This document shows, in pieces, positions 2,042-28,109 of a DNA stretch of 64,000 nucleotides (position 1 is its first letter; each line of letters starts with the position of its first letter). The stretch comes from Mesaphorura yosii (taxonomy: Eukaryota > Arthropoda > Collembola > Poduromorpha > Tullbergiidae). The translations under genes and the position numbers were made by a program. The notes beneath the pieces were generated by a model that saw only the letters and a list, made by a program, of their open reading frames with translations, did no database searches and had not been told where the DNA came from. The stretch lies in assembly GCA_009869945.1 (NCBI GenBank), contig WIXG01000165.1:103357-167356 (forward strand), written 5' to 3'.

Positions 2042-5000
2042 ATGAGCTCCGAAATCGAGTTTAATACGGCTGGAAGCCTGTACAGCACCGCTTCGACTGC
2101 GGAATGGAAACGTACTCAAGAGCACACATTCACTCGGTGGGTCAACCAACATTTGGCCAAAGCGAACAAATCGGTCCATTCGCTCCGCACTGACTTGGCA
2201 GACGGGTTGACGCTTATCGCGCTGCTGGAAGTGCTGTCAGGCAAGAAACTTCCAAAACATCAGGCACGGCCCGTGCTCCGTTCGCAGAAGATGGACAACG
2301 TAAGCCTGGCACTCCGGTTCTTGGAGGAAAGTGAAGGAATTCGCGTTGTCAACATTGGTAAGGGCTCCGCAAGTTCTCACCCGCATACGCAAGAGCTTTT
2401 GTAAATTCGCAAAAAGTAGCGATTTTTGTGATTTTATGAATGGCAGACGTTGCTGACATCGTCGATTGCAAATTGAAGCTGATTCTTGGACTAATTTGGC
2501 ACCTGATTTTGCATTACTCCATTTCCAAGCCAAATCCGGTGAACAATCATGACGACCACAGTGGGGAATCAAATTGCAACGTCGAAAATTCGCTGACAGC
2601 ACATCGAAGGTACATCTTGATGCCTTTAACTGCCAGTACAGTAACTGCCAATCTCAAACTAAGGATTGTCTTGCATTCTGGATCATTTTTTAGACTTCTT
2701 GCATGGCTTCAAGCTCGCATGCCTGCTGTGGCACTTTCAAACTTTAGAACTGACTGGAACGACGGCCGCTATTTGGGCTATCTTATCAATTCGTTTGATC
2801 CTACATTGTGTTCCGACTGGTACACTTGGAATCCTCGGAATGCGAAGGACAATGTGAGGAGGGCAATGGACGCGGCAGAGGAGCATCTTGGAATTGCACA
2901 GGTAAAGTGGCGAAAATTGCTGCCTGCCTCGTGCCGCCAACCTTTTCTTAAATGTGATGTATTGTAAGTATTCTCTTGAAAGTTGGTTGATGCCGAGGAC
3001 GTGGCGAGCCGTGACCTGGACGAGCCTTCCATGATGACATACTTGGCACAGTTTCGTAATGCAAAAGTTGTTCTGCTAAAGACAACGAAGCAGCCACCAA
3101 CAGAACCACCACCTCCTCCGCCATCGACGCCGACTCCGTCGTATAAAGAGGACAAGGAGAATGACTACGCCAAGACAATGACGACGGCAAAATTTAAAGG
3201 GTATTTTACATAATCTTTATGTCCCTGATACTGAAGCCATTGACTCGCTTATCTCTTGCCCTGCTCTCATCTCACTTCGCCTCACGCTAACACTGCATTT
3301 CAGAAAATGTAACGCCTTTGGCGAAGGACTTGTTTTTGGGAGGACTGGTGAACAAAATCGGTTCATGGTCGACACACGCCCAGCAGCAGCAGCGGCGGCC
3401 ACGACTTCACGTCGTCAACGCCAGGGGTACGACGGCGGTCCAGCTGTGAGGCTGGGACTTTCGGTTGAGGTGAGCACCTTCGAACTGGAGACCAGCTGCA
3501 TGTCCTTGTCTTCGTCCACCTCCCGTAAAATCCTGTGGAAACTGAACTCATATTTCAGGGTCCCTCAGAGACACAGCTAATGTGCACGGACAACCACGAC
3601 GGATTCTGGACCAGTAAGTCTATCCACAATACCACAATCGACATAAAGTTCCTTTCACTGATTTGACTCGTATCTAGTTGATTACAAGCCGGAGGAGCCA
3701 GGAGAGTACATGATCAGTGTTAAACTGAATGATGAGCACATTGAAGGTTCGCCATTTAAGGTAAGGCATCGGAAGCCGTTTGAAGTTGTGAAAAGTATTT
3801 CATTGATGCAGTATATACAAGTTAAAAGTAAACTGTTTCGTTTAAGGTCTTCGTCGGAACACCAACACCAGTTGCAGTTGCGGCAGACAACAACTCGGGC
3901 GCTGTGACCAATTGTAATTGTAAGCAGTGCCAGTCGATGTCGGTCAAAAGCAAGCTCGGCAGAGATGGCAATGACAAAGCTCATGCTGAAAAGGAGCGTA
4001 AGAAGTCAAGGGAGTCAAGTGGTGGTGGTGGGCATAAAGGACAGCCGTTCAGGGTGTCCATTCTTGGTGAGTAATTTTAACTTGTGTGCTTGTCCAAAAT
4101 GGAAGTTGTACTAAAACGGAGCACCGCCGCATGGATTTCGTTTTCAGGGAGAAACTCTCCGCAATACGTCGTCGACAAGGCGGATAAAAACAACAATGGC
4201 CACAAGCATTCAACGACACAGACGCAGACGGTCACATTCGTCGAGGAAAAGGCGAACCCCTCAACATATAAATACCAGGCAACTTCTAGAGATGGAAAGA
4301 CTGGTGACACAAAGCCAGCGCCAGGATCAGTCACGTAAGTTAAAACTGCTATTGCTATTGCTCGGATCATTTGCTTGATCTAGTACCTCGACCATAATTC
4401 AGGCATGAAGTCAGCGTCACAACCACGATAGACTCGGGCAATAGGAAAACGAAAAGTAAGGTCACGCACAAAGACGCACACGGGCAAAGGGAAAAGCAAG
4501 CACAGGGGACAAAACTGAGCCCCTCCGGAGCACAGGACCCAACCACGAACGCCAACACCAGGCAATACCCGCCAATACCGAAAGAATGGTTGCCAAGAGC
4601 CCCGCCAGAGTCAGCCGACTGGAACATTGGTATCGGGCACCAACAGCAGTATCCGCCAATTCCACGAGAATGGCTTCGAAGAGGAGGTGAGCATGAGCAT
4701 GGCGCAGGTGTGACAGGAAGCCCAAATGCGAATGCTGAGTCTACGTACTGGCACCGGCACGAGGACGATGAGTACCACATGGAAATCTACACAAACCAGC
4801 CCCGACACAAGAACAAGGTACCCGTGCGAATTAATTAAGCCATGACTTTATCAATGACAAGTCCCAAGTCCTGTCCTGATACAGTTGCTCCATTTTCCTT
4901 CCAGGTGGTCGTGCACAGCTGCCCGTGCAAAGAATGCCAGGCACGTCGGTCAAGGTCAAAGGTTGTTATCTGGACCAACGATGGAGGTGCTGACGAGGAC

Positions 5001-5132
5001 GACGGATATGGTGGTAATAGGCAAGTGAAGACCCAGCATAACGACCGCGACCACGAACAGCCGTACAGGGAGACGATTATTTCGTCTACGATTGAAATTC
5101 ATAATCCACAAGACAGCTGCCACATTATGTAA
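2042..5132 (+). CDS. Short filamin-like protein: CH1-CH2, one filamin repeat, repetitive tail, CaaX-like end
   Basis: Eleven exons (2042-2357, 2447-2609, 2694-2901, 2983-3200, 3304-3469, 3559-3613, 3678-3760, 3847-4066, 4148-4334, 4403-4817, 4905-5132) join in phase into 752 residues. Residues about 20-265 form a tandem calponin-homology actin-binding domain closely resembling that of the filamin gene at 16001 (HTFTRW, SLRTDLADGL, LEVLSGKKLPK, DWNDGR). A proline-rich linker leads to one filamin Ig repeat (about 302-410, from KCNAFGEGL to EGSPFKVFV), whose first half carries an Ala-rich insertion. The remaining ~340 residues are low-complexity and hydrophilic, with CNCKQCQ and CPCKECQ motifs, two YPPIP(K/R)EWL motifs and the terminal residues CHIM. 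Filamins normally have many repeats and dimerise through the last one; this protein has one repeat and no recognisable dimer repeat. Probable role: actin binding, possibly at membranes (inference). AATAAA lies at 5185-5190. Confidence 0.85.
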
Positions 5133-6190
5133 TATGTATTGTGCTCATGTAACAATTGGCAAAGTAAATGCGAACTTGGCTGTCAATAAAACACACAGCA
5201 AATCACTGCCGAAGCCAGCAACGAAATGACTCGATTCAACTCTTGTGCCAATACCTTTCGCATCGCACAAAATGCAAATGCCCCCAGTACCCTTCACTTA
5301 ACTAAGAAATTATCTTTGGGTTTTGGGATTGTAGCCCGGCTTTCGCCAGGCAATCAAAAAATTGTCGTAATACTCATTAAATGTCCCCTTCCACGGAAAT
5401 CTTTAGTAAAAGGCGAAAGATTTATACGACTTGAAAGGAGACCAGAGCTTGATTGTACCGTGTCTCGATCCGAGACTCCACTCCAGGAACCTCTGCGCTC
5501 AGTCCGGCTTTTATAATTCACTGGAGTGTGGTTACGTAAGTTCAGCACCGAATTCCGGTATCTTGGTCTTGTTTTGTAACTAGCAGCTTACTCCTTCTGA
5601 TTTTGCATGAAAATTATGACACTTGTACCAAAATTTCGGAGGAATTTGCCAAATTGTCTTTTTTCACTACTGCCCGTGCGTGTCTGTTCTATGAATACCT
5701 CGTGTATCCTTTCATAGACTTGAAATTCTCAGCGGAAGATTTCTCTGGTTGAATTTGAATAGGAGATTTTTAATAAGTTTTGTAATTTTGGATCTTAGCA
5801 AGTCAGTGCAGTGCAGTGACAGGACAGCAAACTGATCAGTGAGTGACTGGCTCAGGAATTTTCCGGAATTGATCTTGCTCTGGCTACATGAATTTGGAAT
5901 CTTCTAGACAGGAGATTACGATCGGGCAAATGGCTACTTGATTATTGATTCCATCCTCACAGTTGCTTACGAATCAGTAGATTTCCACGAAATATTCCGA
6001 TATGAACTAATCACACGGAATTTCCGAGACTGTGGGAGATTTGGTAGCATTGGCACAGGCGTAAGTGTAATCATAAGGATTCATTCATTCATACAGCTTG
6101 GACAAAGAGATAAGTTAGTTGAGAAATATTGTGCCGCCAATTCTAGATTTGTAGAGTGCATGAGAATAGAAAGAGGCTATTACTATCAAG
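5133..6190 (+). other. 3' UTR of the short filamin and 5' region of NPRL3
   Basis: The stretch contains the AATAAA signal at 5185-5190 and otherwise noncoding sequence. A short CAGTG near-tandem repeat occurs around 5805-5820. No further gene is visible. Confidence 0.4.
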
Positions 6191-8759
6191 ATGGACAAGA
6201 AGATGCCCCATCGGATGGTGAATGAATCACCGTTAGTCAATCCCTTAGCTGTAATACTGGTGAAGAATGGCAGTAAGGGCGACCGCCTGTTATTCCGATA
6301 TCCGTTCAAGAAAGCTCAAATAATTCCGGATCCTTCGCCTTCTCCAAGATACAATCAAACCCCAAGTCTGAGATTTTACGATAGTGACTTCAAAACCCCT
6401 GCATCGGCTTTCCTTCAACCCTCCTCCGCTTACCCCCAGAAGTCTTCGTTATTGATATCGAAGTACCCAAACACTGGCTCAAGCCTTGGTCTCAAATCAC
6501 CGCTGGCAAAGTCAAGCCCTATTTCATTTGGAAACTTGAAGAATCCTCAAGCTGTGCCAACGCCAGTTTCATCAGTGAAAAGTGTAAGAATTGCGGAGGA
6601 CGAAAAGGATAATTCAGTCGGTGATAATAATAACAAGATCAACATTAGTCCTGTCAGCAATGTGGGTTCGCCGGTTTCAATCATTTCGACAACTGCAGCA
6701 GCAGGGAACAAATTAACCCCGAATATTCCATCAGTTACCCCAATATCTACGCATTTGCTTTCAAGCACCAAGCAAAGTCGAATAGCGTGGTCAGAAGAGT
6801 CAACGAGAATTGGTCTTGGCAATGATATCCTCACTGATCTCAGCGATAAGGACCTATCCAATCTACTTGCCGTTACACCAGAACTGACGGAGAAGAAATT
6901 CGAACTGAAAATTAACGAAGTGAGATTTGTTGGTCACCCAACTCTCATGCAACACCCAAACATGAAGGAGTTTTATTCTTCGACGGTGAAGCAGCAGAGC
7001 ACCACCATCAAATTATTTCACATAGTCTTTTGTGTTCAGGCAATGGCAAGTCATTCTATTGTGAAATGCTTCTACGATTTGAGCAAACGGCTTGGTATTG
7101 CACTTCGGCATGAAGAATATCGCTGTAATTATTTGAGTGGTGAAATTGGAAAGATCGTCGCTATGCTGGATGATGCGTCACACCATCAAGAGAGTGACTT
7201 GGGGATTGGAAGCGGGGTTGATCACGATAACATAATGGAAGATAATTATTTTACGCACTTGGCGGCAAAGATTTTAGAGCAAAGTAGCTTAGCCCAGCTT
7301 CTGAAGCAAGTTTACGATGACGTTTGTCAAACTGGATTTGTAAAATTGAAAATTAATCATTGGGTGCAAGTCAGCTTCTGTCTTCCGCAGAAGATTCACG
7401 TTCTTCCGTAAGTTAGCTGCTTTACTTTGTGTTTCGTGTATAGAAAATCTTACCGTCACTAATTCAAATATTCTAATTTCAGTTATCGCAACCCTCCGCC
7501 AATCGTAGAACCTGAGAATATTCACAAATGTTTGGAAGCCATTCGTCCTTACCACGCCTTACTTTTACTGGTTGACCGAGAGGAGCTGGTTGGAAGTTTC
7601 GAAAACGACGCCGCCTCAACCATCCCCAGGCTGCTTCAAGTGTACTCCCCACTTAAGAGCCTACAGATAATTGCGGCGGACGCCGATTTGACATTGGGAC
7701 ACGTCGTTGAAATTGCTTCGCATTTGGTGTACTGGTCGATGGCGACAATCATTTATCCAATTTGTGAAACGAACGTGTACGTCGTGGCGCCCGATGCGCC
7801 AATCTCTTCTGAATTGACTGAAATGGACGACGCGTTCCTGGACAGATTTCCAGGGCTTTCATTGTCACAAACGTTGAGTGATTTTTCAGTGCCTTCGCAG
7901 CTTGGAGAATTGATAAATCCTGTCTTAGGTAGATGAAAAGGCAAAAGAGAGTGTTAGATGTCAGATTCCGTTTGTTAATCACCCTGTCTCGGTTTCTCTT
8001 TCAGGTGGATCGTACGTTCAATCCCAAGTTGTGCAACTAGTCTGCTGGCTTTTGCAACACCATTTACTGATCCAACTGCATACTTACGTGTACATGGCCA
8101 CGTACTTGGACAGTGCCATGAATTTAGAGTCTGGAAACGGCAACAACAGCGGACAGTTTCTGCTAGACGGCAATTTAAGTATTTGTCCACCGTACTTTGA
8201 GCCAGAGGAGGATGAGATTACTGTGAGTGACTCATACTCTGAAACAACCGGTGATGACATCGGATTGAGCCCGATTCCACCATCGCATCAAAGCCAAAGT
8301 TCAACCTTGTCAGCGTCTGAGAAATCAGAATCAAGCACGATAACTTTGGTGGGCAGTCATCACACAACAAGCAACGAAGGAGACGACGTTGTGGACGGAA
8401 TGCCTTTGAAGCGCAATCTTTCCTTGCCTCTGGACACGGAAACGGATGGCATTGGCATGGATAACGGCCTCGCACTCGTGCCAATGGAAAAGCTGAAGGG
8501 GACATTAGACGAATTGGCCGATCCGGTCCGGCGTGCTCTTTCTCTTGTGAAACAGCCGATCTCCATCCACGACATTAAAGTTTTCTCCAGGATATCAAAG
8601 TACTTCAATGGCGAGTACCACCTGGAAGAAATCATGTACATGGAGAATATGAGAAGGTCACAAGTGCTGCTCATCCTCGACAAATTCCGCGACGTGCTGA
8701 TAACCGTCGAGAAAGAAGACGCCGACATCAATTTTTTCAAGACTACTGCTTTGAGTTAA
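6191..8759 (+). CDS. NPRL3: GATOR1 complex protein NPRL3
   Basis: Three exons (6191-7407, 7483-7928, 8005-8759) give 805 residues. The N-terminus matches the NPRL3 signature (PLAVILVKNGSKGDRLLFRYP), with the longin-like fold expected there. Conserved NPR3 segments follow (for example IKLFHIVFCVQA and IRPYHALLLLVD), and the C-terminus has the winged-helix-like region (FSRISKYFNGEYHLEEIMY). GATOR1 (DEPDC5-NPRL2-NPRL3) is a GAP for Rag A/B that shuts down mTORC1 on the lysosome when amino acids are scarce. The human protein is 569 residues; the excess here comes from Ser/Pro/Asn-rich, probably disordered insertions at about residues 40-225 and again before the C-terminal domain. Residue ranges are approximate. 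Confidence 0.93.
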
Positions 8760-9808
8760 AGTTAGGTTATAATTTTTATGACAAATTATGTGATCACGCA
8801 ATGAAACCGTTGTGATAATTCCGAGAAATCTGGGTCCGGCCTGGGCTCACCAGTAACGTCTACTCACCATTCGTAATGTCTCCTGTCCTGAATAATTTAC
8901 TTTTGACTTTCGAATTGCATGAATTGACGTTTCTTTTCCGTCCCAATTCACCAATTTCAAACTTTCGCAATTGTAATACAATACGCAATTTACATATCCT
9001 GGTTATTGGTTATCTGCCCTGCCCTGTGCTTGTATCAATTTCGCTATTATTGACATTTACGCACTGTATTTATTTAGCATCATGACATTAGCATTATCCA
9101 TGGGCCATGAAGCATCTGTCGAGCCAGTCGACCAATGTTGGTTTTATCTAGACACGTACGAAGCACGAGAAGACAGACGAGACGAGTATCTAATTTTCAG
9201 ACTAAATCGAGACGGTGAAATGAGACGCAAATAAAATTGCGAAGTGTGAAGTACAAAGTACCGTCCAACGATTGTGCGAATTGCGATTCAGTCTAACCTT
9301 GTCACTTGTTACCTTGCATACTTGGCATTATTGTTTGCGTCTGTGTTTAGTTTAGCTTCAGTGCAGTGCGGCTGCGATTGTGGTCAAGATCCTGAAACCT
9401 CTACCAGCGTTGGCAGTGGCATGCTGGCATTTTTTGTGTGGATTCTGGAATGACACACGAACGCGAGGCCGATTGAGAAAATTGAGAATCAGTACAAGGA
9501 AATTTTGCATTAATTGAAGACGATAATTGCCAGTTCAGTTCAGTTCAGTTCACAAGACGCAGTTGCAGTAGTTAGTCGCTGTAACTGACAGAATCACAAC
9601 ATTAGCACGTGAACGTAGATGAAAGCGTGTGTTGAAAGTGAATCTCGAAGTTTGAATTACTGCGCAGCATAGGCTAGTTGGATTTGATTCGAAGAACGAC
9701 AACGCAATTCGCAATCACGATTGCGTGCGAGCTGGCGTTAGCTTTGCCATTTGCACAATGCAGCTTAATTGAATTCTGCCTAATTCCTGATTAATACCTC
9801 GAATTAAA
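8760..9808 (+). other. Intergenic, 5' region of the UPF0415 gene
   Basis: No coding signal is seen. A pentamer tandem repeat lies at 9531-9550. The interval presumably holds the NPRL3 3' UTR and the promoter and 5' UTR of the next gene. Confidence 0.4.
9531..9550. repeat. (CAGTT)4 microsatellite
   Basis: Four perfect copies of CAGTT lie about 260 bases upstream of the UPF0415 start codon. Confidence 0.9.
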
Positions 9809-11269
9809 ATGTCTGACCAAAATAGCAGCATTAGTAAAGTTAACCCGCTCGATCCAGTTCCGGTCCAACTGCGGAAGGTAGACGGAATCGAAAAGCTCCG
9901 GCGCCTAATCACAAAGGAAATGACCAGTGAAACTTCAGACGAAAAGTGCAGCAATCTACCTCATTTGCTATCAATTGTGACGTGTATCCTGAACAATAAC
10001 AGTGCGGTGCCACCGTCAGCGGTCCTGCGACCTTTCAGTTACACGCATGGCAAGGCTAAGCGATTCATTGTCGACATCGTATCCTCAGATGGGACGGAGT
10101 GGTGCAAAGTATCGGCAAGAAATCCCAAGTCCCTGACACTGCTGGCGTGTGGAGGAGGTGGATTCGGACAAAGATCGATTCTGGACCATGCTGTGGACTA
10201 CATACAGTGTGCTAAGCAGAATCCATGCTTCTTCAGACCGCCCAGCGTGAGTAATTTCAATAATTCGACAATTACTCTTCAAATAATTAATGCATTCTTG
10301 GGTTTCACAGATCAAATTCATCTTTACAAGTGGGATTAGCGCCTCGCTGGCAAATCAACTCATCTCAATGGGTTTATCGGTCGAGGGTAAAGTTATTCAA
10401 GACTCTGAGCTCCGCGTCCATTCAAGAATCAAGACATACGAAGACTATGCGAAGAACCAATCACAATCTCCAGAAGACGAATCAAATTCCAGTTCCAGTC
10501 AAGATGAAGAGTCTGTACTGATTCTCCGAAATCCTAGTTTAGAAAATGTCACAAGATTAAATTTGGATATCACGGCGCTACTTGCGTACGTATCGAATTT
10601 AACGAATGGGCATGTCAACGTGGAGTTTACCAAGCCGGTCTTGAAGCAGCAGCTTGAAATGGAGAAGAAACACCCACAAAAGCCAATTTTAGGTTAAAAA
10701 AAAATCGCATAAGATGGTAGTTGCTTGCAGTAATTTCGTAGTTTTACATTCATTTGCTGTCCCGTTCTAGATCACATATTCCATGGTCGTGAATTGTGGT
10801 GCTGCCAGACAGCAATGCGTGAATTTCAATCAATACTCTCAACAGTTGGTGGTCAGGCGGAGCAATACCGTGCTATTGAGTTCCTGAAGCGAATTAAAGT
10901 CGTTCCTGATCGCATGTCTGAACGATCGAAGTCTCTGGATATTATTGGCAATGTTAAACTCAGGTCCCTGACAATATTTGGTTCCGGTGACTACTACGAA
11001 GCGGTGACGGTCACAGCAAATACAGGGTTTGTGAGATCCGCAAAAACTCAGGTACAGAATTGCATAATTCTAATTGTTCTCATTCATCGTCAATGTCGAT
11101 ACTCTTAACGCAACTTGAGTAACTTCACTTTACTGCTGTATTTACTTCACAGGGAGTTGATTTTCCTGTTTTCATACACGAATCACGAGCTTTAACAGAA
11201 GGCAAGGAGAAAGACATCATTCTGGACTTAAGCAGCTTGAATAATATCAACATGAACACTTCAATGTAA
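9809..11269 (+). CDS. UPF0415 / DUF1308 family protein (C7orf25 homologue)
   Basis: Four exons (9809-10246, 10311-10692, 10771-11051, 11153-11269) give 405 residues, close to the ~420 residues of human C7orf25. Family-like segments are FIVDIVSSDGTEWCKVSARNP followed by a glycine-rich stretch, the DYIQCAKQNP segment, FTSGISASLANQL, and the C-terminal half with the IFHGRELWCCQTAMREFQSIL segment. The C-terminal domain of this family has been likened to PIN-type folds, but no activity is established that I know of. The gene is convergent with the TTC12-like gene; only about 170 bases separate their stop codons if the TTC12 frame is read to 11442. Confidence 0.85.
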
Positions 11270-11678
11270 ATTACCCGATTACCCCAAGACTGAAGAAGCT
11301 ATTTTCTCCAACTTCAGTGGCAGTCACAAGCCAAGACCAAGGTCTGTGTCAGCCTGTGATAGGAATTCGTTTAGTCGGATTCGGAAGTCTGATGTTTGCT
11401 TGTACTTGTGCTAAACGGATGGTTATCTCTAGGATCCGTTGCTAAATTTCATGACGAGCAGCTCTCCTCCAGACTTCATCCCCGTCAACGCCAGCCGGAC
11501 CAAAACTCTTCTTGTCGTCGTCGACTGATTTAATACTGGACTTTCTGGGCCGCATTTCAACATCCAGAAACCTCATTTCAAACAATTCCTTTTGATACTC
11601 TGTTAACAAATCCGTCATAGTCATAGTTGATTCATTATTATTTTGCTGGTGCTGGTGCTGATTGCTAATCAAATCAAG

Positions 11679-12565
11679 TCAATAAACTACACGAGTTTTA
11701 TAATCGAATTTACCATCTATCATCTTGACATTGCTTGGAAACTTCTGTCTTGTTTCGTCCAACCACTCGCGGCATTTTTCAGGCTCTTCCTTCAAAAAGT
11801 ACGCTTTCGCCTTGAGGAGATGAGCTTTCATGCTTCCTTCGGCTAAATAAATTGCAGAGTCGCAGTCCTCAATGGCCTTGGAGTAGATTCCGATACGCAG
11901 GTACGTCAGGGCCCGATTGTTGTACAGGCAGGGGCTGTATTTGATTAAGCCGATCGCCTGTGGACATTGATTATTAAATGAAATGATCGAGGGAAATCAG
12001 CAGTCCATTCAGTGGCTGCATTGTAAGAGTTTACGTTTACCTTGTTATAATTATCCAAAGCTTCGGCCCAGTTCTGCTTCCTGAAAGCCACATTTCCAGC
12101 CTTTCGAAACTCATCAGATCGTTCCTTTCTTTCTTTCCGGTCGCGCGCACGCTCATTCGCATCCTTCTCAACCATTTTCATAAACGCAGCCTGACTCATA
12201 TCGCCTTGTTCTTCGCTGGCTGCCTTCGCATTATTGATGACTGTGCGATTGGACGTGATCTTATACGCGGCGGAAGAGCAATCACGACCATCGTCCACGT
12301 CCACCATTTTTCCATGATTTCCATCCTCTTTGTTTTGGATGAGGAGATCTGCTTTCATCATCGCCTTCACCTGCACCTTGCTGTCGTTTGAGGCCAGGCC
12401 ATGTATAATTTCACTGATCTCGTCAACTTGAAACAAGAAATTGTCGAGTTCAGGATTCGGTTCCATTACGCTGGGATTACAGGGTCCAACACTTGAAGCA
12501 AGGTCATTCGCACTCAATTGGCGTTCGGACGAGCAGCTCTCGGTACTTGCATTGGTAGTTGACAT
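11679..12565 (-). CDS. TTC12-like tetratricopeptide repeat protein, short form
   Basis: Two exons (12565-12041, then 11957-11679) give 267 residues ending at a TGA. The N-terminal ELDNFLFQVDEISEIIHGL segment and FMKMVEKDANERARDRKER followed by TPR helices (GNVAFRKQNWAEALDNYNKAIG; CLYNNRALTYLRIGIYSKAIEDC; AHLLKAKAYF) follow the order of TTC12, a dynein-arm assembly factor in vertebrates. Human TTC12 is ~700 residues with armadillo repeats after the TPRs; those are absent here. An upstream in-frame ATG at 12646 would add 27 residues, but a TATA-like element at 12668-12677 puts the transcript start close to it, favouring 12565. The frame reopens directly after the TGA and stays open to 11442. 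Confidence 0.8.
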
Positions 12566-12667
12566 TTTAATGGTTGAATTTCTTGTGAAAATTGCACAGG
12601 AGCTACTCCAGATTTGCGTGAACACGACCAGGAACCACCGCGACACGACGCACTTGACTTTTGACTA

Positions 12668-12677
12668 CTATTTATAG
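12668..12677 (-). promoter_or_regulatory. TATA box of the TTC12-like gene
   Basis: On the minus strand the sequence reads CTATAAATAG, about 100 bases upstream of the chosen start codon. A transcript start some 25-30 bases downstream would fall near 12640. Confidence 0.55.
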
Positions 12678-12699
12678 CAATTTAATTGCACGACCAATC

Positions 12700-15600: not shown

Positions 15601-16000
15601 TGCCGACAAAATGCTAAATGATTCTCTGCTATCTTTCTCTATTTTTCATGTGCTTGCTGTCGCTGGCTGTTGTAACTACACTGCTGCTGCTGCTACGTTC
15701 TCAACTGTCAACGTAAACTGACGTATTCACGAACTCCTCTGCCGCTGGGCTGGCTCGCTGACTTGCTCGCTTGCTGCCCTGCTTAATATACTTAACACTG
15801 CACTTTGCTAAACTCAAACTGGGTCCATGTCCATGCTGCTCCGTGTTTACCTGTGAAAATGATAAAAAGCAGGTGGGGAAAGAAGACTCAACTCGACTCG
15901 ACTACTTTGTAGTCGTGTAGTTAGCATTAACATTGTTATCCTCTTTATTACTATCACTATCACTATTCCCGCTACACTGCACTGAACTGAGAACAGCACG
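12700..16000. other. Gene-poor 3.3 kb upstream of the long filamin
   Basis: No ORF here looks like a conserved protein. The longest plus-strand frame (14272-14673) has a composition and context I cannot support as coding. There are many short direct repeats (CCTG and CCCTG runs near 13270 and 14480, GCCAA near 13867). The interval probably holds promoter, 5' UTR exons and enhancers of the filamin gene. Confidence 0.4.
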
Positions 16001-19000
16001 ATGGAGGGTGGTACTGCCAATGCTAATGCGAATGCAAACGCAAACGCAAACGTAAACGCAAATGCTAATAGTAGTCCCAGCCGTAGAAACTGTAGTACTA
16101 GTAATGATCAACATCTTCAGCAACATCACCGTGAGCACCGTGCATCTGTATCGGCAACCAGTAATGGAGAAGAGTCGGCGAGTCGCACAAGTGCAAGTAC
16201 GCCGGCTACCGCGAGAACCGTCACAGGCACCTTATCAGGAGCCGGAGCCCCGCATATCGTGAATGTTGATAGCAGTGGCAAGAGTACGAGCAGCACAAGC
16301 AGTGAACCACAGTACTCGTCCAGTGCCAGTGGCTCGGTGATTGTGTCAGTGAACCAGCAGCAGCCGTACCCCGGCAGCAGCAGTGGCAGTGGCCAACAGG
16401 GTTCGGGAGCGGGCCAGCAGTATCCGGCGGGTCAGATCCAGTATCAGTATCAGAACAGCACCGACCAGGACGAAGACCAGGAGCAGTTGGACGAGGAGGA
16501 CGATATGGAGGCCGAGCGGGACCTCGCCGACGACGCGCCATGGAAGAAGATCCAGCAAAATACGTTCACCCGCTGGATGAACGAGCACCTGAAGGTACGT
16601 TTATTGCAATAGTGATGATATTAAATAACACATAAAGTTGCCATTTATAGACGGTGGGCAAATCAATCAATTCATTTGAGACTGACTTATCCGATGGGCT
16701 CGCGCTCGTCACACTCATCGAAGTGCTCTCCGGCAAACAGTTGCCGAAGCACAACAAGAAACCCACCTTCCGGTCGCAGAAACTGGAGAATGTGAGCGTG
16801 GCGCTCAAGTTTCTGGAGAAGGACGAGGGCATTCGAATCGTGAATATCGGTAAGACACGCAGTAAAGCAAAGCAGCAAAATCAGTCGACATAATTAATCA
16901 ACCGTGCAATCGCGGCGGTGGCGTAATAAATGTCATTTTGACGTATTCCCTTTTAAGGGCACGAAAACGCAAACTCAAAGCAAAAGTCAAATCAGTATTA
17001 TTCGCATACCAATTCGCAAATCGCATTGCCAAAAGAGAAAGAGGATCTCAGCCCTCGATTCAAGTCCTTATATGCAATACTGCAAGCATAAGCAAATGGG
17101 CAATTATTGCAATCTCATTAGTTTGACAGTAATATTTATGACAATGACCGTAATTAGCGACTTTGCACTTTGCACGCACGCAGATGCGACGGACATTGTC
17201 GACTCGAAGCTGAAGCTCATTCTGGGTCTCGTCTGGCATCTCATCCTGCACTACTCCATTTCCATGCCCATGTGGGAGGGCGAGGAAGACTACGCACCGC
17301 CAAAAGGAACCTCCGACACCGGACCAACTCCAAAACAAAGGTTCGCACGCAGTTCTTTCGTCATTTCGCCTCGCACTCGCAAATCGCAGTGATTCATTTC
17401 AATGCCAATTCCTTTCACGTTCACGCAATTGGCATTTTCTATTCCATTTCAGCGCAAGTCGCATGCATGAGCCGAGTTCTCGTTTTTATGTCCATAAATA
17501 GTTATGATCTCACACTCAAGCTTTCAATTTTCTTTTCGCAAGTGCAACGGCACGACACGAACGACAGAGCAAGTAGAAGCTGTTTACTATTTACGACTTG
17601 CAAACTGCCAAATGCGAAATACCAATTTCGCACTTTTACACTTTTGCAGCAGTCGTGAATCTTGAGCTTATCGGCTTCTGCATAATTTGAGGCTTCGCTT
17701 CTGTGTAATTTGAAGAATGTCTTAAGCTTACGCATAACGCATGGCTTTTATTACAATCAAAGGACAGGAAGCTTAGAGTTCTATGTAAATCCTTAACTTT
17801 AACTTGACACTTACCATGCACATTGTAAAGTAAATGCAGTGTAATAAAAAGATTCTAGGCGGAGTAAGAATTATGTCATCGAGGGCATGGACACAAAATC
17901 TTTTCCAAGGCTGATGACTAATTAATTTGCTTTTACCGTCAGGTTACTGCACTGGGTTCAGAACAAGGTGCCTGAGATGCCAATAAACAATTTCACGTCG
18001 GACTGGAACGACGGGCGTGCCGTTGGCGCGTTGGTGGACGCAGTCGCCCCGGGTCTCTGTCCCGACTGGCAAGAATGGAGTCCGAAGAACGCGCTTCAAA
18101 ATGCACAGGAAGCGATGAACCTCGCGGATGATTGGCTCGACGTCCGGCAGTTGATTCGACCTGAGGAAATTACCAACCCAAAAATTGATGAATTGTCCAT
18201 CATGACGTATCTGTCGCAGTACCCGAATGCAAAGGTTAAAGATGGAGCTCCACTCAGGCCGAAGAAAGGGACGCCTAATCAAAGGTAACCATAATGATTA
18301 CGACCAAACTTTAGGCACACGTACTAATTCATGATGAAACCAACACATTTCAATCGGCGTACTCATATTTTTCAGAAAATGCAGAGCGTACGGACCCGGG
18401 CTCGATAAGGGAATTGTGAATCAGCCCAACAAGTTTACAATCGACACAAGAGGCAAGTCAAGCCAGTCAGTTAATTATGTGCATTACACGATTACACCTT
18501 CAATTTGGCTAATTTTTGCGAATAAATTGCACAGGTGCTGGAACAGGTGGCTTGGGGTTAGCGATTGAGGTAAGCTGGTATCGGTTAAATCGTTAAATCG
18601 CTCCACGAGCCCACAATATTAAATATACAATTTTACGCTTCGCAGGGACCATCCGAAGCCAAAATGACATGCAAAGATAATCTTAACGGATCGTGTACGG
18701 GTAAGTTCGAACCGCACCCACCTGAATCAATAGTAATCTTTGTGGCTGAGGATCAACAAGGCTGTGTTGAATTTTTATGCAGTTGAATACTTGCCGTCCG
18801 AAGTAGGAGACTACGATATCAGTATTAAGTTCGCAGATAAGGATATTCCTGGTTCTCCTTTTCGTGTAAGAAACAGCAACAACGCACGCACGCACTCGTT
18901 TCGTTTCATGAGACTGGCTCCAAGCTTTTGATGTTCATGATGCTTTCCTTCGATTCGATTTCAGGTTCCTGTAGTGCATTCACCAGCAAACGTGGAAAAA

Positions 19001-22000
19001 GTCCGTGTATTTGGCCCAGGACTCGACCCGAAAAACTGCAGGCAAGGTGTTCCACAGACGTTTCGTGTTGATGCAACGAAAGCTTCACGTGCGCCGTTGG
19101 GTGTGTCAATAACTGGTGAGGGTTATGACTTTTGTTTCCGGTTGCTGTGAAATTCATTACATTATCGAACTCTTGCAATGAAGGATGAAAGAACACAAAG
19201 ACAGAAATAAACGAACAACGACTCGACTCGATGCATGTTTAATGCAATGCTTACATTCTGCAGGTTTGAAGGAATCGCCCCAAGTCCGTGATAATGGAGA
19301 CGGAACATATGATGTACGGTAAGTTCGTGTAGACTGTCAGACTGTGTGCGTTTGTATTGGACAATATGGTTATTTTTACGGACGAAGTAGATCGGCGTAT
19401 ATTATTTACAATCAATAGTTGTCCTGCAAAATGTAACAAGGGACACCTGAAGTTTTGAATTCGTTTCTTCGTAAAGACTTCAGTTTTCACATTTTTGTTT
19501 CATCTCTCAAGTCTCTTCACCTTCACTCATTCATTCTTTTTCAATGCAGTTGTAAGTTAGTCTTCAGTGATCAAATGTAATTCGTACGACATTTCAATCA
19601 GTGGAACAAGTTAAGCCAGTAACATCCGAATTATCAAAATCGACAAAGTTAAACCTACTAATGGCAAATTCAGGTGTAAGTGGAAAGGGTATACCTTCTC
19701 AGGACGAACTACGAGGCTGCTGTGTCTACATGAATATGGTGCTCATAAGGGTGGAAACAAAAAGTAAGTGTATTCAATCAATTGTTATACGGCATGAGCT
19801 CGTGAGGAACGCCAACAATTTGATATTAATATTATCTTGAAACACTTGCAGGAGACTTCAAAAAAAGGCACAAAAAGTTGGAACTAGATCGGGCTTCAGA
19901 AGAAGTATTCAGATGCCCTTCAGAATCCCTATGCTATATCCTTCAGAATTCAATACAGAAGACTCATTAAGATCACACTTGAAAAGATACCATGGAGGGA
20001 TGAAGAAAGCATAAACGCTCAAATCATTTTGGCTATGAGAAAATTGTCGTTTAATTTGGAATAATGAACACGTGTATTTCAGAAATGCTTCGGCCAAGTT
20101 GAAGAATGAAGTAGAGTCATGTAACGTGCCTAGCCAGGGCGATGACAGTAGCAATACCGACTTCAATAGTTGGTGCAAACGTGATGCTGAACAAATTATT
20201 CAAGGAAGATGCGTCGCCAAGCGCGTCCCGAAGTATGTGTACGTCATTTTCACAATGGAGGACATTCCACCTGGGCATTTGTTGCAATTCTTAAAAGACA
20301 TGGACGACAAAAACGGAGAATTAGATTACTACGTTGGAGTATCAGACACACCAGACAACCATTTGTATCACCTTGATGAGAAAAACAAATCGTCCATGAT
20401 TCTGGTGAAGATCGAAGATGGATTCAATGCATACTTGGTTGACGTTGACGCATTTACAGATGGGACCACCAGCGGAAATTATACGAACGCTCGCAAGCGA
20501 GAGTCCATGCGAATGGTGAGAAATGTCCGTCCGCACTTACTCAGGATCATAATCTCTAATCAGATCTTGCAATAATTTCACACTTACTTCCTTTGTTTGA
20601 AGGTCTTCGGAAACGCAAACAAGAAGTCATTGCTGTACAACTCGACTGGTATTAAGTGGTTTGTCGAACCGGAGACTGGAATTAGGAAACGCACATTCGG
20701 AATACTTCACTAATGAGGAACACATTCAAGCTCATTTGGAAGGGCGTCGACTGAACAACGGATTATTCTGTCTGGACGCTGGCTGTCAAAAAGTTCACGG
20801 TAACAACGGTCGTTTCAACTTTCCCACCAAGCTCATGCAGATGACGGCGTCTTCAAGGTCCTCCTGAAGAAAGATTGCGAATTATCAATAGGCTCGTTTT
20901 ACTTAATCCATTGTTTTAAATTGATCTGTTGTTATCTTAATCCATTTTTGACCTTGGTCCATCGTTGTTTTTAACTGAAATCGGAATAAAAAAGTATGTT
21001 GCCAATAATACGAATATTCACATCTTTTTAGCACGAGAGTACGAAGTCTATGCCGATGAATATCATAAGTAAAGTATGGTATTTGGTACGATTCTGTAGG
21101 TATTTGCCAACAACAGAAGGAGCCAATCTTATCATTAACGTTACGTGGGACGGGAAAAACATTCCAAATACGTAAGCGTTATGCCAATTAAGTTGACACG
21201 ATGTTTCATCATTCAATGAATTATCATTGCCTTTTCACAGTCCGGTGCACCTGAAAGTGATGCCCGGAATTGAGCCGGGTAAAGTCAAGGTTAGCGGAGA
21301 CGGCGTGTCGCCGAGAGGCGTTCCAGCGTCGTTGCCGACTGAATTCCTTATCGATACAACGGAAGCCGGTTTTGGAGATTTGGAGGTCCAAGTACTCGGT
21401 CCAGACGGATATCCGCGCAAAGTAAAAGTAACTGATCATGGTGATGGAATATTTAAGGGTGAGTTAAGCAAAGAAGTAACTTCAAGTTCAATTTATCGCT
21501 TCACGGAAGTTTTTGTATGCGTTTTAGGAACTTATGTGCCTGATGACTGTGGTCGTTATAAAGTTAATATTAAGTACGGTAATCAAGATGTGCCACGCTC
21601 GCCATTTAGTGTTCAAGCTTACGCCACCGGAAGTGTAAGTGATCTTGGTTTACTACTTTACATCTACTACAATGAATCTTCGACCAAGTTTACAATGTTC
21701 TGTTCCTTTAGGCTGGCAAATGTAAAATCACAGAAGGCCGGAAACAAAACTTGCAAATCGGAGAAGAATATTGCATTACGGTCAATACGAAAAATGCCGG
21801 AAATGGAGCCGTGACGTGCCGGATACGCTCAACTAATGCAAAGTAAGCCTACGCGGTACGAACGATCATTGATTTTACGTGCAGATGAATGTTCATGTTG
21901 GATGTTGGGTTTTCATGCAACAGTAGCGATTTGGACATCGACATCGAAGACAACGGGGACGGAACCTTCAGCATTTACTATACAGTCAAAGACGCTGGGG

Positions 22001-25000
22001 AGTACACGATAAACATCAAGGTTCGTGTGCCGAAGCCAAAAACCAATTATTTCCCACCCAAACGATATGATTAATGCGAAAAGCAACCACGGTTGAAAGC
22101 TTAAAATTCAGCATGTAATTTTTTCTGTCATTGCCTTCAACAGTTTGGTGGGCAATCGGTTCCAGAAGGCTTCTACACTTTTAATGTAAGTGAAAAAATT
22201 ATTACTGGCTTTCTGTCTTCGTCTTTCTCGCATCGCATCTCATTAATTTCCTGTCGTTTCCGTTGCTGTTACTGGTTACTTCATCACAAATCGCATTTCG
22301 TCGCGCTGTGCAATGTGGATAATTCCATGCCATGCTACAAGTATTTTATTCGGGGAAATCTGCCAAAAATGCTGTTATCATTCAAAGTGAGTGTAATCCG
22401 AAGCGTGCTTCGAATGAGTCATGAGGGCAGGAAGGAAGAATGCAAAAGTGCGGAGCATTTTCTAGGATTTAACGAGATAATTGCATCATACCGCAAGCTA
22501 AGGTTAAGACAGTTGAGAAGCTGCGATTCTGTCGATTTTGATACTCAAGATGTTATTTTATTCGCATCTCGCAAGCTCAACCCAAAAACAAAAGCCCTTC
22601 TCTCGCCTTTTGCGGTCCATAAATCACCGGTTTTATTTTCAAAACCCATTTCTCGGTGACAAAGCCTGAAACGCCAAAGCAAAAATATAAAAAGTTATTC
22701 TTTTTTTTAAAATAGTTGCTCTTATACTTCGGAGCTGGCTTCGCTTTGCACTGGCGGTTAGTATTCGCTACAACTACAAGTATCGAACATGCTTGATGAA
22801 ATCTCTTCGATAGTGATAAAAGTTCGTGATCTACCACGAAAGAAATGCGTAAGAAATAATAAGCCTGACTCACTGACTAGGTTGTATAAGTATTATTACG
22901 GTTGTTGTTGATTTTAGGATTTTATGCATTTGCTCTCTGGTAGCATTTTACGACTTGTAAAATGTAAATTCTTAAATTTCACTTCTCGGGAGGAAGTGGA
23001 AATGGGGCTCGGGCTCTTAAACTTTTATTTTTAGCCAACATTTCCTTTTCATTATCGCGATCCTTCTCTTTTGCTGATTTTACATAAAATTAAGTATTCG
23101 AGTATTCCGGATTTCTTGTGTAAGTATCATCGCGTGTTTAGATTTCGGGCTCAGTCTCAAATCAGTCTTTGTAGGCACATACCAAGCGCCAAGTTGTCAT
23201 TCTTCGCTTGGCTTGGCTTTGAATTGTGATCAGTGACTCACGCTCTTGAGATTCTAATTAATCATCCTCAGAGCTCAGGTAAGATTTTGTTCAAACAAGC
23301 ATTAGCGATAGTGTTACCGAGCCCGAGCCGACAGCCGACAAGCAACAGCTTTTAATTATCCGGTGCATGTGAATTTGATTGCAAATATTTATGCAACAAA
23401 CAAACCTGCACTCAAGGTTAAGGAGTTCAAATATTTACTCCTGACTTGACTCTTCATCGCTTCCGCCGCACCGTGCGTGGATAGAAAACAGATATTGATA
23501 ATTTTGATAAGAATCTCAATCTCGGTCGGCTTTGTGAATTTAATTCTTTCTTCTTACATCTGCAGCTGAAGCTGGATCAAAGCTAGCATACGTGTTTTCG
23601 TGAACAAAATCCCAAGAATGCATGAATGCATAAATCCGTGACTAAATTACGATTTACAATGTACGAGTCATTTATTCTGCGGTCTCAGGCTGACTAGCTG
23701 ACAAATCGTCACATTATTGCCTATTGTTCAGGAAGGGTTAAAAAATCTTACACGAGGAATTGCGTGAGTGTGGGCGAGAGCGGAGAGCGACAAGGGTGTA
23801 CAGAGGACTGCAGTACAATCATAATCAGAGAAATACCTCGCTGTTATATAACCAGTGCGCGTACGCGTGCATAAAATTACGATTGCATTGCGTGAGGTAC
23901 GCTGAGACTCGAGACTCACCTGGAGGCATTGCCTCACAGCGCAAACACCGGCTCGGCCAGGCACAACCTGTAGCATCTGTTCATTTTCATACCTATTGGG
24001 GCTCCTGGCAAGTTTGTTTAGTCGTGTTGTGTAACCAAACCACTACAAACTACAAAATACCGACAAAAATGTGTAGAGCACTTGAAAAGCCATTTTTACC
24101 ATTTTTATCTTATCACGTCACCTTCGCATTCACCATTCGCGCTCGTCAACTGTAAATACCGAGAATTTACGACAGGAGGAATAGGAAATGAGTTGCAATC
24201 TCATTACATGGGCTCAGTACAGGTAAACTGTTGAGTGCCGCGTAGCCGTGTAGCACAGTTGAGTTGAGTGATTCTGTCAAATCGCTAAACGCTTAGCTCA
24301 TTAGTCATTAACTGTTGTGTCCCACAAACGTGAACAGTGAACAATTTCCATGAGGCTGTGAACGGCGAACGGTGGAACTCAGATCATACCAGCACATTCT
24401 CAAAATGACAAAACACTACGCACGTTCCATCAACTTCATTCCAAGTGACGAGCACACGGGTCCAGTTTTCCCATTCCGTCCCAACGATCACCTCAAAGGT
24501 TTCCGGTACCAGTGGCCATGGCCGCCAAAGGTGAAGTAACTGCAATCGGCAGCCGGCACCGGCATGTCCGAGACGCGACGGACGAGACGAAAATGCTTTG
24601 TGCACATGTCTATTTTGGTTCTGTATCTGTGGCTAATGATTGACGGATTACTTTTAGGCGGATTCTCACCAGAATTACGTGAAGGAAGAACGCATCGAGA
24701 GGCAAGAAATCCGAACCGTCCGAACGACGCGACACACGCAACACGAAACCACATCACTGTCCAACGGTGTCTACCGGCCAGTCGAATTACATCACATACC
24801 ATTGCCAAGCACAGACGGACACGTACAAGCCGAAATCAGAATGCCGAGCGGTCAAATTGATAAGCCAATCATCGAAGACAATCGTGATGGCACGGTGAGC
24901 ATCAAGTACGCACCCAGGGAGGAAGGACAGCACGAACTCAACATCAAGTACAACGGTAAGCACTAAATAGACTAAATACTATGCAATTAAGCACGCGTCA

Positions 25001-28000
25001 CTGAAACCGGGTTTTCTTACTGTACAGGTGAACACGTTCAGGGGTCACCGTTCAAGTTCCACGTTGACACGATAAGTAGTGGCTACGTCACGGCGTACGG
25101 CCCCGGACTCGTGCACGGCGTCTCGGGTGAACCGGCGCACTTCACCATTTCAACGAAGGGAGCTGGAGCTGATAAGGGACTGGGCCTCTCTGTCGAAGGG
25201 CCAAGCAAAGCTGAGATCAGCTGTCACGATAATAAAGACGGAACTGTCTCAGTCGGTAAGTCGAGTTTAGAATTTATATGCGATTTTGGCTTTAGCGTGA
25301 AAAAATTCTTTGCGATTTCGTCAAATAATGCATATGCAAGATGTAGTTTAACCTTTTCCTTTGACGTTAGTTTAATAATTTGAATTCGATCTGATTCCAG
25401 CGTATTTGCCGACTGCTCCTGGTGAATACAAAATATCGTGCAAATTCGGGGAGAAAAATATCAAGGGAAGTCCGTTCACTGCCAAAATTACTGGGGAAGG
25501 ACGCAAGAGGAACCAGATATCCGTCGGTTCTTGCAGCGAAGTGACTTTCCCTGGCAAAGCAACTGACGCCGAGCTGAAAGCGCTGAATGCATCAATCTGT
25601 GCGCCGAGTGGCCTGGAAGAACCCTGCTTCCTGAAGCGTCTTCCGAATGGAAGCATTGGCATCTCCTTCACGCCTCGAGAAGAGGGACAGCATGAAGTTT
25701 CTGTCAAGAAAATGGGTTCACACATTTCAAACTCTCCGTTCAAGATCCAAGTGGCGGATCGGGAGGTCGGTGACTCAAAGAAGGTTAAAGTCACTGGAAA
25801 CGCGCTGAAGGAAGGCAAGACGCACACTGAGAACACATTCAATGTGGATACGCGCCAGGCAGGCTATGGCGGTCTCTCATTGAGTGTGGAAGGGCCGAGC
25901 AAGGCTGACATCAGCTGCCAGGATAAACCGGACGGAACGCTGGACATCAGTTACAAGCCGACGGAGCCTGGCTACTACATCATCAACCTCAAGGTAAAAA
26001 CTTAAAGATGACAGCTGGTGAATTTATCGTTACACAAGTCAGAAGTCAAACAAAATTTGCTTACCATATTCCTTTAGTTTGCTGATCACCACGTCGCTGG
26101 CTCTCCATTTACGGCAAAGGTATGACGACAAAAATGCAGTACAACCTCAGTTATGCTTTGTGAGACTGCTAGTTTCAAATCGCAATGTTGCTTCAGATCA
26201 CTGGTGAAGGCACAAACCGGCAACGCGAGCGCATTCAACGGCAAAGAGAAGCGGTGCCTGTCACTGAAGTCGGTTCGGAGTGCCGTCTCACCTTCAAGAT
26301 GCCTGGAATAACACAATTCGACTTGTCCTCAACCGTGACTTCTCCCAGTGGAATTACCGAAGATGCTGCCATCAACGAAGTCGAATCCGGCCTTTATGCA
26401 GTTCACTTTGTGCCAAAGGAACTTGGTGTTCACACGGTGTCTGTCAAGTTCAACCAAATCCACATCCCGGGCTCTCCCTTCCAGTTTACTGTGGGTCCGT
26501 TGAGAGATGGGGGCGCTCACAGAGTGCATGCTGGCGGTCCGGGTCTTGAAAGAGGTGAACAGGGTCAGCCAGCGGAGTTCAACATTTGGACACGCGAGGC
26601 AGGTGCTGGAGCGTTGGCCATTTCGGTCGAGGGGCCAAGCAAGGCCGAGATTGATTTTAAGGATAGAAAAGATGGGTCGTGCTATGTCAGCTACGTTGTG
26701 ACCGAACCCGGCGAATATCGTGTTGGAATCAAGGTGAGAATGTTCGGGAAGAAAATTATGCCCGATGCTAATTATTGCCTTCTTTCGTACTGCAGTTCAA
26801 TGAAGAGCACGTTCCTGACAGTCCGTACGTGGTTTACATCTCACCCGACATGGGCGAAGCAAGAAAAGTCGACATCGGTCAGTTTCCTGAAGGCGCAATA
26901 CAAACAAATAAGCCAGCTATGTTTATGGTTCGCAAGAATGGCGCAAAGGGAACGCTCGACGCAAAACTCGTTTCGCCGTCTGGAATCGAAGACGATTGTT
27001 TCATTGACACCGTCGACTTTGACACTTACTCGGTCCGGTTCATGCCAAAGGAGAATGGCATCAATAACGTGCATATCAAGTTGAATCAAGTAATATAGAA
27101 GAAAAAGTCTGCAATTTTGGCTTTATTATCAACAATGACTAAATCTTATTATTTCAGGTACATATTCCTGGTAGTCCGTATCGGATTAAAGTGGGCAAGG
27201 ACGAGGCGGACCCGGCTGCTGTTCACGCTCATGGGAAAGGGCTTGAAGAGGGGAAGACGGGACAGAAAACTGACTTTATTATCGATACATGCAATGCCGG
27301 CGCTGGGCACTTGGTTGTCACCATTGATGGTCAGTCAAAGGTGTCAATGGATTGCACAGAAGTTGAGGAAGGCTACAAAGTAAGAAATTGACAGGATTAA
27401 TTAGAATTCACATCCAGAATTAGAGAATTCTCTAATTGTTGATGTTGCATCATTTTAGGTTCGCTACACACCGCTTGTCGCTGGCGATTACTACATCACG
27501 ATCAAATACAACGGGTACCACATTGTTGGCAGCCCCTTCAAAGTGGTGTGCACAGGAAAAGAAGTTGGCGACAAGGGCGGGCAGGAGACTTCATCAGTGG
27601 TGGTTGAGACCGTGCAGAAAATATCAAAGAATTCGAAAGCACAAGGCCCCGTGCTTCCACTCTTCAAATCAGATGCATCGAAGGTTACTTGTAAGGGAAT
27701 GGGGTTGAAGAAGGCTTATCTCCAGAAGCAGAATCAATTTACTATCAATGCGGGCGATGCAGGTAAGAATTTCTTCAGGCGTCTGCCAAAAGCGAGCAGC
27801 GAATACCTGAATTTCAAGTTTACCGGATTTTTGACGCAATACCAACAGGGAACAACATTTTATTCGTTGGACTACACGGCCCAAAGGGTCCCTGCGATGA
27901 AGTGTTCATCAAACACATGGGCTACAATAACTATCAAGTCAATTATGTGTGTCGCGAGCGCGGAGACTACATCATAATTGCCAAATGGTACGTCACAATA

Positions 28001-28109
28001 TTTGTCTGAACTACAATTTTATTCATATAATGGCGTTTGTAACCTTTTTATGAATGTTTGCAGGGGCGAAGAGCATATTCCCGGATCACCTTTCCGTGTT
28101 GAAGTCTAA
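16001..28109 (+). CDS. Filamin (cheerio/FLN type), 13 repeats
   Basis: Twenty-six coding exons join in phase to 1705 residues: 16001-16594, 16651-16849, 17184-17340, 17943-18284, 18376-18452, 18535-18569, 18646-18700, 18783-18865, 18965-19115, 19264-19318, 21100-21171, 21241-21458, 21528-21634, 21712-21842, 21924-22020, 22144-22185, 24658-24955, 25028-25255, 25401-25993, 26078-26119, 26197-26733, 26796-27089, 27158-27379, 27459-27762, 27849-27987, 28064-28109. A low-complexity N-terminus (Asn-Ala repeats, Ser, Gln, acidic; to about residue 180) precedes CH1 and CH2 (about 185-425). Thirteen filamin Ig repeats follow, most ending in a GSPF-like strand; the last ends at the C-terminus in GSPFRVEV and should dimerise. 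It cross-links actin and scaffolds membrane receptors. Vertebrate filamins have 24 repeats, so the first rod segment is strongly shortened. One intron is GC-AG (18453-18534). AATAAA lies at 28853-28858. Confidence 0.92.
16018..16070 (+). repeat. GCAAAC/GCAAAT hexamer repeat coding for Asn-Ala
   Basis: Imperfect tandem hexamers near the filamin start codon encode an alternating Asn-Ala tract (residues about 6-23). The repeat is part of the coding sequence and is likely length-variable. Confidence 0.8.
18453..18534 (+). other. GC-AG intron in filamin repeat 1
   Basis: The reading frame between DTRG and AGTGGLGL only closes if the donor is G|GCAAGT. No GT donor nearby preserves the conserved filamin sequence. 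GCAAGT is the usual consensus for the rare GC-AG class. Confidence 0.8.
19601..20867 (+). pseudogene. Nested unknown gene or decayed gene inside a filamin intron
   Basis: Filamin intron 19319-21099 is about 1.8 kb, against the usual 60-100 bp. It holds same-strand coding-like pieces: 19601-19763 with donor GTAAGT, a piece from 19852 that hits a stop at 19968, a 433-nt open exon 20083-20515, and an exon from 20603 with a stop at 20711. An overlapping frame runs on to 20867 and still looks protein-like. At 19931-20014 another frame shows half of a C2H2 zinc finger (F-x5-L-x2-H-x4-H), out of phase with the CP motif just upstream. A 10-base direct repeat (19917-19926, 19940-19949) sits at that break. 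I do not recognise the protein in 20083-20713. A damaged inserted gene copy is most likely; an intact gene with missed exons is possible. Confidence 0.5.
22186..24657 (+). other. Large filamin intron with an alternative first exon near its end
   Basis: This 2.5 kb intron separates filamin repeats 4 and 5. Apart from the coding exon at 24405-24530 I see no gene in it. It is the natural place for an internal promoter. Confidence 0.5.
24405..24530 (+). CDS. Alternative first coding exon of a short filamin isoform
   Basis: An ATG at 24405 opens a 42-codon exon (start [13 protein letters not shown], end QWPWPPK) followed by GTGAAG, and it splices in phase 0 to the exon at 24658. The long form splices 22185 to 24658 in the same phase. 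The resulting protein would have 9 filamin repeats and no actin-binding domain. Drosophila cheerio is known to make such a ~90 kDa short form from an internal promoter. The exon has no sensible upstream splice acceptor in this frame, which supports its use as a start. Confidence 0.65.

Follow-up and report, generated by a model that had tools for sequence, protein, structure and literature searches.

C. elegans and Drosophila each have an already described filamin-like protein that probably does not form dimers. In the part of PMC3143143 drawn on here, the last repeat of C. elegans FLN-2 is reported from modelling to be without the residues for dimerisation, and in the portion of PMC13225219 available to us the products of Drosophila jitterbug appear to be without a dimerisation domain of the mammalian type. 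These two cases make the statement in the first-pass annotation of the present locus, that known filamins cross-link actin as dimers, too general. The locus lies in a window of 64,000 nucleotides, by which is meant the whole stretch of DNA that was analysed, and encodes a filamin-type actin-binding domain (ABD), a single filamin repeat, and a long tail. A literature search among open-licence papers returned no filamin with an ABD, one repeat, and a new tail. By descent, the one-repeat gene belongs to the filamin family, yet it lacks two defining features of the filamin cross-linker: the rod of many Ig-like filamin repeats is absent, with one repeat detected by Pfam against 13 in the full filamin gene of the same window, and there is no C-terminal dimerisation repeat, Pfam placing no second filamin repeat anywhere in the 752-residue protein.

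The one-repeat gene occupies positions 2042-5132 of the + strand and comprises 11 exons with GT-AG joins and no frame break, which together encode 752 residues. The ABD is preceded by 16 residues, and the tail (residues 404-752) accounts for 349 of the 752 residues (46%). The features of the gene and its downstream boundary are as follows.

2042..2357, + strand: exon 1, start codon and first part of CH1 (Pfam CH)
2447..2609, + strand: exon 2, end of CH1 and CH1-CH2 linker; both flanking introns common to the full filamin gene
2694..2901, + strand: exon 3, first part of CH2; its 3' intron is absent from the full filamin gene
2983..3200, + strand: exon 4, end of CH2 and proline-rich linker, with PPPPPP at residue 271
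3304..3469, + strand: exon 5, start of the filamin repeat; 18 residues longer than in repeat 1 of full filamin
3559..3613, + strand: exon 6, middle of the filamin repeat; flanking introns common to repeat 1 of full filamin
3678..3760, + strand: exon 7, filamin repeat as far as ...GSPFK; donor 3760 corresponds to full filamin donor 18865, and homology stops here
3847..4066, + strand: exon 8, tail, with the first CxCKxCQ motif
4148..4334, + strand: exon 9, tail, polar
4403..4817, + strand: exon 10, tail; contains YPPIP[KR]EWL twice
4905..5132, + strand: exon 11, tail, with the second CxCKxCQ motif and the stop codon
5185..5190, + strand: AATAAA poly(A) signal of the one-repeat gene, starting 53 bases past the stop codon
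5333..5450, - strand: U5 spliceosomal RNA gene (Rfam RF00020, 98.5 bits), bounding the one-repeat gene downstream

The one-repeat gene is not an unfinished filamin model, because its poly(A) signal is followed by the antisense U5 snRNA gene and then by the NPRL3 gene. On the upstream side lies a GST gene with its end at about 1066 and an AATAAA of its own at 1135, so that the one-repeat gene is closed in on both sides. The best PDB matches of the GST gene are labelled GST u1, GST, and GST delta; with the delta GSTs being an arthropod class, these labels accord with assigning the DNA to an arthropod. On the downstream side, the NPRL3 gene starts near 6191 and encodes NPR3 and NPRL3 C-terminal domains, and reading frames with DUF5614 and DUF1308 (Pfam) are also found between the one-repeat gene and full filamin. 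The Pfam scan of the neighbourhood covered 30 of 52 reading frames of at least 130 residues, plus two spliced models. The U5 snRNA gene is full-length and occupies the short interval that separates the NPRL3 gene from the one-repeat gene, lying antisense to each of them. Elsewhere in the window, at 51675-52994, adjacent frames carry a filamin repeat and NHL repeats (Pfam), a layout that we take to be that of a TRIM2/3/71-type protein.

The first-pass annotation had described a good filamin-type ABD and a single filamin repeat with no dimerisation repeat, and both descriptions hold. Pfam identified two CH domains (3.6e-41; best stretch residues 25-130), and filamin A or B chains that include the ABD take the first nine places among the PDB matches of the protein. 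The best of these scored 236.9 bits for the chain and 230.1 for the ABD stretch, with plectin next at 134.2; by PDB ranking, the domain is a tandem CH ABD of the filamin type. One filamin repeat was found at residues 302-403 (Pfam, 4.5e-19), and the remaining 6 of the 8 Pfam families listed at E up to 1 for the 752-residue protein all fell under their cut-offs.

Among PDB matches, the repeat is most similar overall to human repeats 17, 19, and 21. Comparison by eye with full filamin showed a T after GPS[KE], where repeats 1, 6, 8, and 10 of full filamin have A and repeat 12 has V, and a Trp at a position occupied by Cys in repeats 1 and 10, V in repeat 6, and L in repeat 8 (also by eye). These changed positions, in the groove formed by strands C and D, presumably matter for ligand binding in vertebrate filamins, and the usual filamin ligands would therefore not be expected for the one-repeat gene. 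Ligand-binding repeats of this kind are termed class A. The human repeat numbers for 2J3S, 2K7P, 2K7Q, 2D7O, 2BP3, and 2AAV follow the portion of PMC3143143 that was at hand.

The presence of a full filamin gene was first signalled by Pfam filamin repeats at 21-28 kb, and a tblastn search with the 752-residue protein located a second ABD at 16.5-18.2 kb. The gene lies on the same strand as the one-repeat gene and starts 11 kb downstream of it. Its coordinates, and those of the repeat that matters most for the comparison, are as follows.

16001..28109, + strand: full filamin gene, 26 exons, 1705 residues, 2 CH domains, and 13 filamin repeats (hand-built model; Pfam)
18376..18865, + strand: repeat 1 of full filamin, exons 5-8, the counterpart of exons 5-7 of the one-repeat gene

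Of its 25 introns, 24 are GT-AG and one (18453-18534) is GC-AG, and the model ends in a stop codon. Full filamin has about 175 residues before the ABD and no tail like that of the one-repeat gene; its last repeat follows a hinge-like stretch, at the position of the vertebrate dimerisation repeat. Its 13 repeats compare with a Drosophila count given as 22 in the available part of PMC13225219 or as 20 in that of PMC3143143. A 1.8 kb intron in repeat 2 (19319-21099) holds an open frame at 20039-20572 with no Pfam match, possibly a mobile element or nested gene. In both genes of the window, the repeat immediately after the ABD is of the ligand-binding type, unlike the first repeat of filamin B: repeat 1 of full filamin scored 48.4 bits against the first repeat of filamin B and 114 against the filamin C repeat-17 chain, and the repeat of the one-repeat gene scored 5.5 bits against the first repeat of filamin B. 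A table for C. elegans FLN-1, limited to modellable repeats, has as its first entry repeat 4, modelled on human repeat 17 (PMC3143143, in the part seen here). On a plain reading of the two genes, the full filamin lineage would have lost its first rod repeats, with the duplication occurring afterwards.

In the part common to both genes, from the ABD to the end of the repeat, the one-repeat gene has 7 introns and full filamin has 8, and 6 of the 7 match in position and phase, a gene structure that places the one-repeat gene in the filamin family by descent. Five of these matches were obtained from a long automatic alignment and the sixth, which precedes the KC at the start of the repeat, from an alignment of the repeats only, in which the gap was placed otherwise. 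The unshared introns are one in CH2, present in the one-repeat gene only, and two present in full filamin only. The last common intron sits where homology ends, after ...GSPFK in the one-repeat gene and ...GSPFR in full filamin. When the introns of the repeat were compared with those of each full filamin repeat, repeat 1 matched at 4 of 4, repeat 3 at 1, and the other 11 at none. Repeat 1 was also the best pairwise match (44 of 87 residues identical, score 196), though repeats 6 and 8 scored nearly as high (186 and 181). A tree of the 14 repeats had good support at 0 of its 11 inner branches and did not single out the nearest full filamin repeat; the assignment to repeat 1 is made from the introns and pairwise scores, not from the tree. 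Because 6 of the 7 introns coincide in position and phase, the one at the end of homology among them, and because those within the repeat match repeat 1, the one-repeat gene is, as read from its sequence, a diverged partial duplicate (ABD and first repeat) of a cheerio-type filamin gene. Where full filamin is called the parent this is shorthand, both genes strictly descending from one filamin gene. The distinct family suggested by the first-pass annotation gives way, on this evidence, to a partial duplicate related to a filamin gene within the same 64,000-nucleotide window.

Divergence between the two genes is uneven. CH1 is 67.3% identical to that of full filamin (76 of 113 residues), CH2 45.0% (45 of 100), and the CH1-CH2 linker 9.1% (2 of 22). 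Across 340 codons of the common part, the proportion of differences is 0.40 at position 1, 0.27 at position 2, and 0.63 at position 3, and this conservation of positions 1 and 2 over position 3 indicates selection on the protein. Over the whole ABD, the one-repeat gene is 52.1% identical to full filamin (125 of 240), barely above its 49.4% identity to human filamin B (115 of 233), whereas full filamin and filamin B are 64.4% identical (150 of 233). The comparison of these three ABD sequences suggests that the one-repeat gene either has changed much faster than full filamin or is old. The same distances would suit an ancient, separate filamin-like family that predates the lineage and lies near full filamin by chance, a reading to which we give some weight but which we consider unlikely: a fast-evolving copy yields the same distances, and the intron pattern, the linkage, and the layout of an ABD followed by a repeat of the ligand-binding type are common to the two genes. 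The ABD appears either too old or too fast-evolving for a recent copy, so the partial duplication may have taken place before this lineage arose.

Beyond donor 3760, similarity to filamin ceases and the tail begins. Aligned locally with the remainder of full filamin, the tail gave a best score that 197 of 300 shuffles reached, and the four tail exons taken singly fared no differently (219, 294, 150, and 162 of 300 shuffles for exons 8, 9, 10, and 11, respectively). Degenerate filamin repeats in the tail, suggested by the resemblance of GQPFRVSIL to a repeat end, were rejected, the alignment to the rest of full filamin being at shuffle level. Pfam on the tail alone listed two families (GFA and Transpos_assoc), both below cut-off, and a PDB search with the tail gave no match at E up to 10. 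In viral contigs, a collection ill-suited to animal genes, there were 4 pattern matches to the tail with 0 confirmed, and no relatives of the ABD were found in that same ill-suited collection.

To score the tail for coding potential, a codon score was trained on full filamin and parts of the NPRL3 gene and applied in six frames. The reading frame of the gene model scored 0.19 per codon, compared with -0.25 to -0.09 for the other five frames and with control maxima of 0.08 (500 base shuffles) and -0.14 (500 background windows). This frame was the top-scoring one in 4 of 4 tail exons and in all 11 exons of the gene, with a narrow margin in exons 3 and 5, and third-position GC is 0.57 in the tail and 0.55 in full filamin. 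This in-frame codon bias indicates that the tail is coding. Several parts of the first-pass annotation are borne out, namely a tail of about 45% of the protein that is unlike a filamin rod and a gene that is spliced and open over 11 exons and is no obvious pseudogene. Its description of the tail as repetitive was not upheld: no tandem array was found within the gene, and the only recurring elements are CxCKxCQ, one copy each in exons 8 and 11, and the nine-residue YPPIP[KR]EWL, likewise in two copies.

The residues V/I/L/M/F/Y/W/C make up 19% of the tail, compared with 39% of CH1, 33% of CH2, and 28% of the filamin repeat, and the charge-hydropathy index of the tail, a simple index, is negative (-0.15). 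In exon 11, however, the hydrophobic content is 27%, about that of the filamin repeat, so disorder need not extend over the whole tail. AlphaFold2 run without an alignment gave mean pLDDT values of 50.8 over 74 residues of exon 11 and 45.5 over 138 residues of exon 10, a confident fold being absent in both cases; as single-sequence models are often poor, these values carry little weight. A duplicated module of about 55 residues in exons 8 and 11 was also considered and is unsupported beyond the common CxCKxCQ motif. The alignment score of the two exons was 55 against a shuffle mean of 23.7 and was reached by 0 of 1000 shuffles, but with the cysteines masked the score was reached by 269 of 1000; because masking removes the signal, only the short motif is common to the two exons. 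Codon positions differ near-equally between the two stretches (0.47, 0.53, and 0.59), and the other five pairs of tail exons align at chance level.

The reading that we favour, and regard as probable, is that the gene arose by partial duplication from the 5' part of a filamin gene, has since diverged, and works as a monomeric adaptor tethered to F-actin. The front end of a filamin gene would have been duplicated, with the ABD and one repeat kept, the rest lost, and a new tail gained. We take CH1 to carry the main actin-binding surfaces, and because it is well conserved, actin binding is probably kept; the poorly kept CH2 and CH1-CH2 linker may mean that this binding is weakened or deregulated. 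The well-kept CH1 would thus bind the actin filament, the proline-rich linker and single repeat would serve as a spacer and perhaps as a weak docking site, and the polar tail with its two CxCKxCQ motifs would be presented from the filament to bind a partner or metal, making the tail the working part. Without a dimerisation repeat, the protein would not cross-link actin in the filamin fashion; its role is probably to anchor something else on actin, and it may occupy F-actin sites in competition with filamin. Candidate roles of the CxCKxCQ motifs are the binding of metal and self-association. A more specific variant starts from the same filamin-derived, non-cross-linking, F-actin-targeted protein and has the two motifs of a disordered tail bind metal or link molecules, so that actin assemblies would form by tail-tail contact and not through a dimerisation repeat. 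We hold this variant only tentatively and as rather improbable, its odds being lowered because the duplicated module in exons 8 and 11 is unsupported.

Two further readings are considered improbable. In the first, it is a decaying duplicate with little or no expression, and its tail is former intron or intergenic DNA that is open by chance. Change is greatest in CH2, in the linkers, and at some groove positions of the repeat, which would suit decay, as would a tail without relatives in the collections searched; decay is nevertheless improbable given 752 codons over 11 exons without a stop, the codon bias of the tail, the conservation of codon positions 1 and 2 over 3 in the common part, and a poly(A) signal in place. 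In the second, which we regard as the least credible reading of the locus, exons 1-7 are an alternative 5' block spliced to exon 9 of full filamin; the product would be a full-length filamin carrying another ABD, and the 752-residue form would be a short isoform. The two genes share a strand, and donor 3760 and the exon 9 acceptor 18965 occupy homologous positions and are each in phase 0, so that read-through splicing from 3760 to 18965 would stay in frame. Against this, the roughly 15 kb between them contain the poly(A) signal at 5185, the antisense U5 snRNA gene, the NPRL3 gene, and the DUF5614/DUF1308 frames; exons 8-11 show coding bias in their own right; and a tblastn query with the 752-residue protein gave a best E of 1.2 between 5133 and 16500. 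That further filamin repeats are spliced onto the one-repeat gene is accordingly unlikely.

The window contains both a full filamin and a shortened relative, and the point of the cut and the start of the new tail can be read directly. The one-repeat gene offers a clear example of how the gene of a cross-linker may give rise to a protein that likely binds actin through a single head, and whose coding tail is without relatives in the collections searched; its significance would be greater if the tail were conserved in related species or self-associating. Relative to full filamin, which is of the cheerio type, it has in common the type of ABD, the first repeat, 6 of 7 introns, and the strand, and differs in that full filamin has 12 more repeats and no such tail. 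The short isoform FLN-1B of C. elegans likewise has an ABD without the C-terminal part of the rod; FLN-1B, however, is a splice form with an ABD and 8 repeats (Table 1 of PMC3143143, in the part drawn on), whereas the one-repeat gene is a separate gene with a new tail. Like Drosophila jitterbug and C. elegans FLN-2, the one-repeat gene encodes a filamin-like protein presumed to be without the usual dimerisation (PMC13225219 and PMC3143143, as far as the portions available extend). The excerpted text of PMC3143143 gives these two an unusual ABD, composed of three CH domains, and long sequences between their repeats, whereas the one-repeat gene has two CH domains and one repeat. By its Pfam domains it is thus not of the jitterbug/FLN-2 type, with three CH domains and many repeats separated by long intervening sequences, and, unlike those genes, it has its gene structure in common with a cheerio-type filamin.
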